The translations under genes were made by a program, and so were the position numbers. Under the pieces are notes generated by a model. The model was not told where the DNA came from and did not search any database. It saw only the letters and a program-made list of their open reading frames with translations. From NCBI GenBank assembly GCA_945889315.1, contig CAMDBP010000017.1, positions 1 to 38,411 on the forward strand: 38,411 nt of DNA, read 5' to 3'. The stretch comes from Chitinophaga pinensis. Its GTDB lineage: Bacteria; Bacteroidota; Bacteroidia; NS11-12g; UBA9320. Numbering within the stretch: the first letter of the stretch is position 1; each line of letters opens with the position of its first letter. Of the stretch, positions 8,132-30,200 are shown piece after piece.

Positions 8132-8413
8132 CTACGACGTTTGTCTCATTGCATAATCAACGTCCATCCAGCCACCGCCGTTAAAACACTCAATTCCTTG
8201 GCTTTGTAAAAAGCCTGTCGCTTGACCACTTCTGCCACCGCTTAAGCAACAAAGTACTATCGGTCCTTCGATGTTTTTAAACTCCGCAATTCTCTCAGGA
8301 ACTTCGTTCAATGGAATATTAATGGAACCCGAAACGTGTCCACCCCTAAATTCATCCGCAGAGCGCACATCTACCAATTGCGCTCCATTTTTTAGTAATT
8401 CTTCTATTGTCAT
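8132..8413 (-). CDS. Single-domain rhodanese-like sulfurtransferase
   Basis: A 93-residue single-domain rhodanese that would carry sulfane sulfur as a cysteine persulfide. QLVDVRSADEFRGGHVSGSINIPL is the family N-terminal half, and the active loop is Cys56-LSGG-Arg61, an intact CxxxxR loop. GGWMDVDY near the end is also typical. It has no signal peptide, so it acts in the cytosol. It is the last gene of a minus-strand run after the HMA (41-bp gap) and DUF2892 genes. E. coli YgaP joins a rhodanese to a membrane anchor of the DUF2892 type in one chain; here the parts are separate, suggesting cooperation at the membrane. Confidence 0.88.
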   Translation of the reverse strand: MTIEELLKNGAQLVDVRSADEFRGGHVSGSINIPLNEVPERIAEFKNIEGPIVLCCLSGGRSGQATGFLQSQGIECFNGGGWMDVDYAMRQTS

Positions 8414-8454: not shown

Positions 8455-8739
8455 TCACGAACTCACCTTACCTATCATGCAATTCGCATAACTCTTAGCC
8501 TTCATAAGTAAACGATTTTCAGCAGTAGCTTCTGGATAACCCATTGCACTTAATTTGGTAATTATGTGCTCTCTCACGTTGTCCTCTTTATAATCTACGT
8601 TTATAGTCCCTTCTTCTATATTTACTTCTGTCGTGTAAACACCTTCAATCTCACTGATCTTGGCAGTAATACTCTTAGCGCAACCGTTGCACTTTATATT
8701 GGCGATGTGTAGTTTTTCAGAAATCATTTGGTTTGACAT
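8455..8739 (-). CDS. Heavy-metal-associated (HMA) domain protein
   Basis: A 94-residue ferredoxin-like HMA protein. KLHIANIKCNGCAKSITAKI places the metal-binding CxxC at Cys17 and Cys20. The first halves of metal-transport chaperones such as CopZ and MerP have this shape; the GMTC form is replaced by NIKC. The C-terminus has an extra tail with another Cys (SYANCMIGK). The frame is open back to 8772, but the ATG at 8739 gives the family-like start; that start lies within the end of the DUF2892 gene (16-bp overlap), implying translational coupling. Cu(I) or another soft metal is the probable ligand; the sequence cannot tell which. Confidence 0.82.
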   Translation of the reverse strand: MSNQMISEKLHIANIKCNGCAKSITAKISEIEGVYTTEVNIEEGTINVDYKEDNVREHIITKLSAMGYPEATAENRLLMKAKSYANCMIGKVSS

Positions 8740-8927
8740 GTATTTATTCCCAACATACTGTACAGCGGACAAAAGTTTACAAAACTTGTTGCTGCAAAAA
8801 TGACTGCGACTGCACCTAACGCCATTGCGAGCGTACCCTCAATCACATTGTTAACATAAAGCACTGCTATAAGTGTCGCCATACTTAGCCGAATAATCCT
8901 ATCGGTAGATCCCATATTCTTTTTCAT
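8724..8927 (-). CDS. DUF2892 (YgaP-like) two-helix membrane protein
   Basis: A 67-residue membrane protein with two helices (IIRLSMATLIAVLYVNNVIE and LAMALGAVAVIFAATSFVNF) and the family C-terminus NFCPLYSMLGINTCQ. The same domain forms the membrane part of E. coli YgaP, next to a rhodanese. It is the first gene of the operon, with a CATCTTTG promoter element four bases before the ATG and a 22-bp palindrome just upstream. The two Cys residues (in FCPLY and at INTC) are noteworthy if a persulfide is passed along. The role is inferred from YgaP only. Confidence 0.82.
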   Translation of the reverse strand: MKKNMGSTDRIIRLSMATLIAVLYVNNVIEGTLAMALGAVAVIFAATSFVNFCPLYSMLGINTCQTK

Positions 8928-8931
8928 AGCA

Positions 8932-8939
8932 CAAAGATG
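8932..8939 (-). promoter_or_regulatory. Putative -7 element (CATCTTTG) of the DUF2892-HMA-rhodanese operon
   Basis: One mismatch to TAnnTTTG, four bases before the ATG at 8927. The same octamer precedes the MBL hydrolase gene at 14181-14188. Confidence 0.45.
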
Positions 8940-8957: not shown

Positions 8958-8979
8958 AAAGGTGACTTCTGTTACCTTT
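8958..8979. promoter_or_regulatory. 22-bp Crp/Fnr-like palindrome, candidate operator
   Basis: On the minus strand the arms are AAAGGTAAC and GTCACCTTT around AGAA; eight of nine arm positions are complementary. The size (22 bp), the GGTGA/GGTAA half-site and the six-base centre resemble Crp/Fnr-type sites. It starts about 19 bp upstream of the -7 element, where the -33 element should be, so a bound factor would touch polymerase. No regulator gene is in the window. Confidence 0.5.
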
Positions 8980-8989
8980 CCCTATGTGA

Positions 8990-10720
8990 TTAATAAAGTT
9001 TAAAAACGGGTAGCCTGTTATATTCCTTTTCGTAATGCGCAGATTGGGCATATATCCATTCAAGTTGCGCTTCTGCATCTCCAGCAAATTGGGGTTCATT
9101 TTGCTTCTTTTGTTCAAATGCTAACCGGAGCTCGCTGTTTGCTGACAGCATACTTGCAGCCTTATCTTCAAAAACATAGTCGCTGTAATGCTCCTTTTGC
9201 TGTAAAATAGCATCGAAAAAATTCCAGTTAAAATAACTATCAGGACTTTCCGGCTCCAGTAACTCAAGGATAAATCGGTCTTTGTCTGTACCCGTTTTAA
9301 TCAGATAGTCTCCCTTTTTAAAATGCCATAAAACAGTATCCTCGACCGCTTTTGTCGTATGATGCAGATAATGCTTTTCGTAGGGTGATTTCACTGTTTC
9401 ATAGCTCGCCATTTTATAGGCTACTACTTGCAATACTGTATCGTGTTGTAGTTCTTGTAGGGTAACGCCATTCCAACGAAGTCGTTCTTCTACATCCACA
9501 AATCCTCTACGAAGTAAATAGGCTTTAGGTTTATCCTTTTGACTAGAAGGCGACATATACCCATAATAATTCATGGTTTTGTCTATGGGTTTTTGGGTAT
9601 CATAAAACAATCTATCTTCTCCCGTTACATCGCTTTTTTTATACCCATATTCATATCCTTTAAAGGTGAATTTATCGACCCTACTTTTATCTAAGGTCCA
9701 ATCTATAGGCAATACTTTTGCTTGCGCTACGTAAGCCTTTTGTGCAGCACGTGTTTCTTTTAAACTTGCCGAATTTTGATTGCAAAATTCCATCGCACTC
9801 TGCAAAAAATCGTAGGTAGCCAGCACCCGTTGCTTGAACGGTTTAAGCATATGTGTTTCCGTCACAAAACCATATATATTATGCAGTGTGGTTAAACCAC
9901 TACTGTAGCGAGGTGAATCATAAAAAGTAGCATAATTATCCTTGAGCGGACCACCCCAATGATTGACATAAGGCACCATTGTTTGATTTTTGACAGTCAT
10001 TTTTAAGTTCATTTCAGGAATTAGTGTAGAACGCAAAAAGGTTCCCATTGAATAGCCCAATTTATCTGGCTGCGTAGACAAATAGGTCATGGTATACTGA
10101 TAATCTGCACCATTACTCACATGCGTTTCGATATACATATCTGGGTCTATTACGTGCAGTAATTTGGCAAAACTTTCTGCATTGCGGCTATCGCATTTTA
10201 CAAAATCCCGATTCAAATCTAGATTTTGTGCATTTCCTCTAAAACCATACTCCTCAGGGCCATCTTGATTGGCTCGGCTGTGGCTATTTCTGTTGAGCGC
10301 TCCTCCGATATTGTAGTACGGTATACATACTACAATACAAGAGTCTAACACCTTTTTATTACCAAAAGCTACGTCTCTAAAAAGCATCATACTCGCGTCT
10401 ACCCCATCCGGCTCCCCAGGGTGTATGGCATTGTTAATGAGGATTATGGTCTTGTGGCTGTCTTTAATTTTATCGAAAGAATATCCTTCTTTAGAAAGTG
10501 TTATGACATGCAAAGGATACCCTGCATCCGTCATTCCAAATTCCGCTATTTGCACATTTTCGGTACTTGAGGCAAGTGATTTCCACCATTGAATGCCTTC
10601 GTGGTATGAAGCTGACTGTGTGCCATTGGAAGTTTCGAAACGGGTAATGGGTTTCTTAGTAATAGGTTTATCCCAAGAAATGAATCCTGCAACCATGACT
10701 AAAAATAAAAATTTCTTCAT
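8990..10720 (-). CDS. Secreted M14 family zinc carboxypeptidase
   Basis: A 576-residue exported metallopeptidase. A signal peptide (MKKFLFLVMVAGFISW) is followed by the M14 catalytic domain. The zinc ligands are His100 and Glu103 of NNAIHPGEPDGVD and His200 of MYIETHVSNGADY. NLDLNRDF near residue 167 holds the substrate-binding Asn/Arg, and Glu288 in GFVTETHML is the likely catalytic Glu. About 250 further residues (330-576) form a C-terminal domain without a T9SS sorting tail, so it is probably periplasmic. The substrate is unknown: peptides or peptidoglycan stems are possible. It is a single-gene unit with its own TAGCTTTG element. Confidence 0.9.
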   Translation of the reverse strand: MKKFLFLVMVAGFISWDKPITKKPITRFETSNGTQSASYHEGIQWWKSLASSTENVQIAEFGMTDAGYPLHVITLSKEGYSFDKIKDSHKTIILINNAIHPGEPDGVDASMMLFRDVAFGNKKVLDSCIVVCIPYYNIGGALNRNSHSRANQDGPEEYGFRGNAQNLDLNRDFVKCDSRNAESFAKLLHVIDPDMYIETHVSNGADYQYTMTYLSTQPDKLGYSMGTFLRSTLIPEMNLKMTVKNQTMVPYVNHWGGPLKDNYATFYDSPRYSSGLTTLHNIYGFVTETHMLKPFKQRVLATYDFLQSAMEFCNQNSASLKETRAAQKAYVAQAKVLPIDWTLDKSRVDKFTFKGYEYGYKKSDVTGEDRLFYDTQKPIDKTMNYYGYMSPSSQKDKPKAYLLRRGFVDVEERLRWNGVTLQELQHDTVLQVVAYKMASYETVKSPYEKHYLHHTTKAVEDTVLWHFKKGDYLIKTGTDKDRFILELLEPESPDSYFNWNFFDAILQQKEHYSDYVFEDKAASMLSANSELRLAFEQKKQNEPQFAGDAEAQLEWIYAQSAHYEKEYNRLPVFKLY

Positions 10721-30149: not shown

Positions 30150-30176
30150 AGGTGTTTTTTACGGAATTTAAATTGT

Positions 30177-30184
30177 TATTTTTG
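30177..30184 (+). promoter_or_regulatory. -7 element (TATTTTTG) for pdhA
   Basis: Perfect TAnnTTTG plus C, 16 bases before the ATG at 30201. A short untranslated leader is expected. Confidence 0.55.
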
Positions 30185-30200
30185 CCGCTCCAAATATAAA

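Follow-up and report, generated by a model that had tools for sequence, protein, structure and literature searches.

We propose that a 22-bp palindrome in the 38,411-nucleotide stretch of DNA analyzed here (the window) is an operator from which a subfamily of Crp/Fnr proteins activates, in class II fashion, a regulon for sulfide and persulfide handling, a reading to which we give a probability of roughly 0.78. Comparison among genomes showed, at the level of sequence, the operator, the promoter geometry, the association of motif and regulator, and the target genes, and the assignment of the operator and its regulator appears well supported. The signal, as we infer from the content of the target genes, would be persulfide or sulfane sulfur derived from sulfide.

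The palindrome occupies positions 8958 to 8979 of the minus strand (predicted -52 to -31) and consists of the arms AAAGGTAAC and GTCACCTTT, complementary at 8 of 9 positions and separated by the 4-nt gap AGAA, just as the preliminary description of this DNA had it. Its core, GTAAC-N4-GTCAC (8962 to 8975, minus strand), is kept in orthologues and in the regulon. As a bare inverted repeat, the arm match is not above chance: palindromes of this kind, with 9-nt arms that pair at 8 or more positions across a 4-nt gap, number 12 in the window, where 6.8 would be expected, and 20 first-order Markov simulations gave as many as 13. The pattern AAAGGTRAC-N4-GTYACCTTT, which was derived from the site itself, has one copy in the window and none in 100 shuffles. 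A looser motif showed no enrichment in this genome over its reversed control, whether matched exactly (8 versus 15) or with 2 mismatches allowed (141 versus 215). In the genome-wide site list, compiled from pattern searches, at least 3 of the 8 exact copies (on contigs C1, C12, and C31) and the majority of the one-mismatch matches were intragenic. Since the bare repeat and the loose motif are unremarkable, the case must rest on conservation and position. The palindrome had also been called the only operator-like one upstream of a gene in the window, which is roughly right, the exception being a weak palindrome between divergent genes (30176 to 30199); the remaining intergenic palindromes of this kind either have convergent genes on both sides or are close to the contig end.

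At class II activator promoters, the operator is centered at -41.5. The core found here is located 22 nt upstream of the -7 box of an operon of three minus-strand genes, which encode a YgaP-like transmembrane (YgaP-TM) protein (8724 to 8927; Pfam entry PF11127, E value 1e-21), an HMA-domain protein (8455 to 8739; PF00403, 1.4e-12), with a start that overlaps the end of the YgaP-TM gene, and a single-domain rhodanese (8132 to 8413; PF00581, 5.6e-14). The HMA-domain protein contains a KCNGC metal motif and a C-terminal KSYANC(M/L)xGK, the latter kept in relatives. The same strand carries the gene upstream of the operon (8990 to 10720), whose end lies 10 bp from the palindrome. The -7 box, CATCTTTG (8932 to 8939, minus strand), is of the sigma-A type, for which the consensus is TAnnTTTG (PMC9723704), and its 22-nt spacing is kept across genomes; the edge of the palindrome is 18 nt away, close to the 19 or so given previously. 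The first base of the box is C, not T, which would fit a weak box compatible with activator dependence. In Flavobacterium psychrophilum, the -7 box occupies -12 to -5 (PMC9723704), and this position, together with the 22-nt spacing, places the operator core at -48 to -35. With the box so taken and the start site as predicted, the center falls at -41.5, which suggests activation rather than repression. The palindrome thus covers -33, as the preliminary description noted, but it is not a -33 element. An alignment of 64 non-redundant sites showed no visible -33 consensus, and a sigma-70 promoter scan returned nothing useful, as expected for Bacteroidota.

The position of the -7 box puts the predicted transcription start at 8927 (minus strand), which is the A of the ATG. 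The ATG lies 4 nt after the -7 box in 9 distinct promoters of the set and never at 0 to 3 or 5 to 8 nt, and this fixed position leads us to predict leaderless mRNAs for the operons of the regulon. Such mRNAs represent 5.5% of the mapped mRNAs in F. psychrophilum (PMC9723704). The start codon of the YgaP-TM genes is uncertain because a second in-frame ATG is found 12 nt further on; the HMA and rhodanese examples listed have no such alternative.

We then looked at the orthologous operons of the family. The YgaP-TM protein is present in 22 of 38 family genomes, and 22 upstream regions were usable (one partial hit was excluded, and one genome contributes two regions). GTNAC-N4-GTNAC followed by NANNTTTG at 21 to 23 nt was found in 10 of these 22 regions (exactly 22 nt in nine and 23 nt in G037), against 0.005 expected per 20 regions in shuffled sequence. 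Three of the 10, including that of this genome, are near-identical, and in the other seven the YgaP-TM protein is 40 to 63% identical. The preliminary description held that its reading would fall if orthologous operons did not keep the dyad upstream; the site is conserved there, with constant spacing to the -7 box. The same type of promoter precedes HMA or rhodanese genes in other genomes, among them G019, G020, and G028, where it stands before the HMA gene. Within genus g1, the motif tracks the regulator (10/11 with the regulator versus 1/8 without it; Fisher P = 0.0012), a co-occurrence that is confounded by joint loss of the target genes and is weak when taken alone. In some family members (L091, L114, and L074), the operator is followed by a gene whose product looks secreted or outer-membrane-like, a possible extra member of the regulon. 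Five family-wide lookalikes of the operator and -7 box (such as GTAACCGTAGTTACAAACC...TATATTTG), located in a MauE/DoxX-like gene, were excluded as in-frame coding conservation; this in-frame stretch (L079, L081, L082, L101, and L105) is a trap for motif scans.

The regulator gene lies outside the operon of the window, on contig C11 of the same genome (G000, positions 44981 to 45637, minus strand), and encodes a 219-residue product. The sole other full promoter-type match in this genome is found upstream of an MBL-rhodanese gene on C11, and a one-mismatch match of the motif precedes a TauE gene; both genes adjoin the Crp/Fnr gene. Of the two full sites of this genome, one is paired with CATCTTTG at 22 nt and the other with TAACTTTG at 21 nt, and the strict pattern, with TAnnTTTG at exactly 22 nt, has no match in the genome. 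The best solved relatives of the MBL-rhodanese protein are 3tp9 and 3r2u (MBL plus rhodanese), and BpPRF and human ETHE1 (persulfide dioxygenase) scored lower. From the order of the MBL and rhodanese domains, we take the protein to be CstB-like. In the same genome, a search with one query found no SQR-like protein, a weak negative given the lack of a positive control, and no Prismane domain (PF03063) marking an hcp gene was matched. The assembly is ∼91% complete and may hold further Crp/Fnr genes. Contig C29 encodes a REC-Crp protein whose recognition helix (SVETAIR) is FNR-like; the same contig carries a TTGAC-N4-GTCAC site, 22 nt from CATCTTTG and in front of a CcoI-like metal ATPase gene (L201; G000:C29:2269-2312, minus strand), which is probably a separate, FNR-type site.

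We analyzed the sequence of the C11 regulator, which belongs to the Crp/Fnr superfamily in that it contains the Pfam domains PF00027 (cNMP-binding) and PF13545 (Crp-type HTH), both above cut-off. CRP structures were the top Foldseek hits of its structure model (pLDDT 82), with a high rmsd to CRP that probably comes from domain orientation. The NCBIfam CRP equivalog score is 57, against a cut-off of 266, and the cAMP contacts of CRP are not kept in an alignment to 4bh9, which, as read by eye, has a gap at E72 and Ser opposite R82. The 4Fe-4S motif of FNR, C-x2/3-C-x5-C, is absent, cysteines being found only at positions 10, 31, 86, and 109. Cys86, which adjoins the former phosphate cassette and falls where the model has low confidence, is invariant in 80/80 loci of the phylum and in 25/25 family proteins. 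The regulator of this genome lacks C92 and C93, which are common among those of the phylum. The recognition helix reads R-V-V-x-S-R, and 80/80 loci have Val where CRP has Glu181. In genus g3 (L071 and L072), regulators with the helix R-E-S-A-T-R adjoin GTAAC-N4-GTTCC sites, possibly a natural change of specificity.

The 80 Bacteroidota loci come from GTDB genomes that we scanned with the Crp alignment, and they represent Saprospiraceae, Chitinophagales, Crocinitomicaceae, and Flavobacteriaceae, among others. Over the 630 kb of these loci, GTRAC-N4-GTYAC occurred 132 times (strand-counted) versus 6 times for the reversed motif, a count conditioned on loci that hold the regulator, which was the question asked. 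Order-wide and with no such condition, the strict pattern gave 24 matches versus 1 for the reversed control. The motif was separated from TAnnTTTG by 21 to 22 nt in 41 of 49 pairs (35 of them at 22 nt, the other 6 at 21 nt), which corresponds to a binomial P of about 1e-55 under uniform spacing, with the reservation that related loci are non-independent. Among the 64 non-redundant sites, the first of the two free motif positions is A in 50/64 and the second T or C in 59/64; the resulting consensus agrees with the HcpR2 operator, GTAAC-N4-GTTAC (PMC1274295). We judge the palindrome to be a real control site because comparison among genomes shows that it is conserved in place in front of related sulfur-detoxification genes in many Bacteroidota.

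The genes behind the sites, identified with Pfam and PDB, encode MBL-rhodanese and rhodanese proteins in 26 loci, the Crp protein itself in 9, SulP in 9, and DUF983 in 8 (mostly before the Crp gene). Further targets include YeeE/YedE-type sulfur transporters, cytochrome bd (CydAB), TauE, YgaP-TM, thioredoxin, a universal-stress protein, and DUF302, and there is a persulfide dioxygenase-like MBL among them; in one locus, the gene behind the site encodes a flavoprotein that is SQR-like by sequence resemblance only. The check suggested in the preliminary description, whether the motif sits upstream of other sulfur, metal, or oxidase genes and of Crp/Fnr genes, came out positively for sulfur and Crp/Fnr genes, and its reading of a Crp/Fnr-type operator gains support from the clustering around a Crp/Fnr gene. 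The half-site, GTAAC, belongs to the class published for HcpR2 (PMC1274295) and differs from those of FNR (TTGAT) and CRP (TGTGA). As for the stress to which the operon might respond (oxygen, redox, nitrosative, or sulfur), gene content favors sulfur, and oxygen and nitrosative stress found no specific support.

In the mechanism that we propose, a dimer of the C11 Crp/Fnr protein, of a little-studied type, would bind GTAAC-N4-GTYAC centered at -41.5, a site that takes the place of a -33 element, and would recruit sigma-A RNA polymerase to the weak -7 box in the style of class II. The YgaP-TM/HMA/rhodanese operon would be coregulated with the TauE-type exporter and the CstB-like persulfide dioxygenase-rhodanese, and these genes would form a sulfide and persulfide detoxification regulon across Bacteroidota. 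Sensing may proceed via Cys86 in the cNMP-like domain, a role with which its invariance is only consistent. More tentatively, and at somewhat less than even odds, the subfamily would throughout the phylum sense persulfide or sulfane sulfur by this single Cys and activate sulfide detoxification from -41.5 sites.

The same operator and regulator could serve another signal, namely, nitric oxide, oxidants, or low oxygen, with the sulfur genes answering a downstream need. HcpR2, which recognizes the same DNA motif, is a regulator of nitrosative stress (PMC1274295), cytochrome bd and a universal-stress protein gene figure among the targets, and Crp/Fnr proteins are able to sense via cysteine or heme. 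We nevertheless consider this rather unlikely, as the targets are mostly sulfur enzymes and transporters, hcp is missing from this genome, and the regulator has no FNR-type Fe-S cysteine motif. Repression of the promoter by the regulator, with release upon the signal, would agree with an operator that abuts the polymerase footprint and with the mode of action of many persulfide regulators (CstR, SqrR, and BigR; PMC9774590); it is improbable in view of the near-constant center at -41.5, the missing -33 element, and the weak -7 boxes, which resemble activator-dependent class II promoters.

There is a slimmer chance that the window site is an FNR-type oxygen site bound by the REC-Crp protein, whose helix is FNR-like and whose contig has a promoter with the same 22-nt spacing, since the half-sites in the window are GTAAC and GTGAC, not TTGAT, and the motif clusters phylum-wide around regulators of the C11 type. 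That the palindrome is a functionless chance repeat is hardly credible: the window does have inverted repeats of similar quality in common supply, and this genome shows no enrichment of the loose motif, but chance is already contradicted by the fixed spacing at which diverged relatives keep the site and by the association seen across the phylum. Our preferred reading remains that the C11-type regulator activates a sulfide/persulfide regulon in class II fashion.

The proposed system shares features with several known ones. HcpR2 is likewise a Crp/Fnr family member without the FNR cysteine motif, and its motif, GTAACnnnnGTTAC, is accompanied by a replacement of Glu181 (PMC1274295, Rodionov 2005); it has Pro at that position and controls hcp, whereas here we found Val, sulfide/persulfide targets, and no hcp gene in this genome. 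CstR, SqrR/BigR, and FisR (PMC9774590) also control genes of sulfide and persulfide detoxification, and cysteine sensing is proposed here as well, but they are proteins of the CsoR, ArsR, and Fis types, as opposed to a predicted Crp/Fnr protein with a class II site. The class II promoters of Escherichia coli CRP and FNR have the same -41.5 operator center, and the regulator has a Crp-like fold; they differ from the present case in the Bacteroidota -7 box, the GTAAC half-sites, and the loss of CRP residues E72 and R82.

In the literature searched, with a search partly blind to the slash spelling CRP/FNR, we found no description of a regulator of sulfide or persulfide handling in Bacteroidota, which hints that this response is apparently undescribed. 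The operator, the regulator, a candidate sensor residue, and a list of targets are now testable in the culturable Robiginitalea, Tenacibaculum, and Cellulophaga, and the rule of fixed spacing (operator core, 22 nt, TAnnTTTG) may aid in finding activator-dependent promoters in Bacteroidota. If our reading is true, Crp/Fnr would be a further family of persulfide-sensing proteins besides the CsoR, ArsR, and Fis types, in a phylum whose habitats concerned include the gut, the sea, and wastewater.
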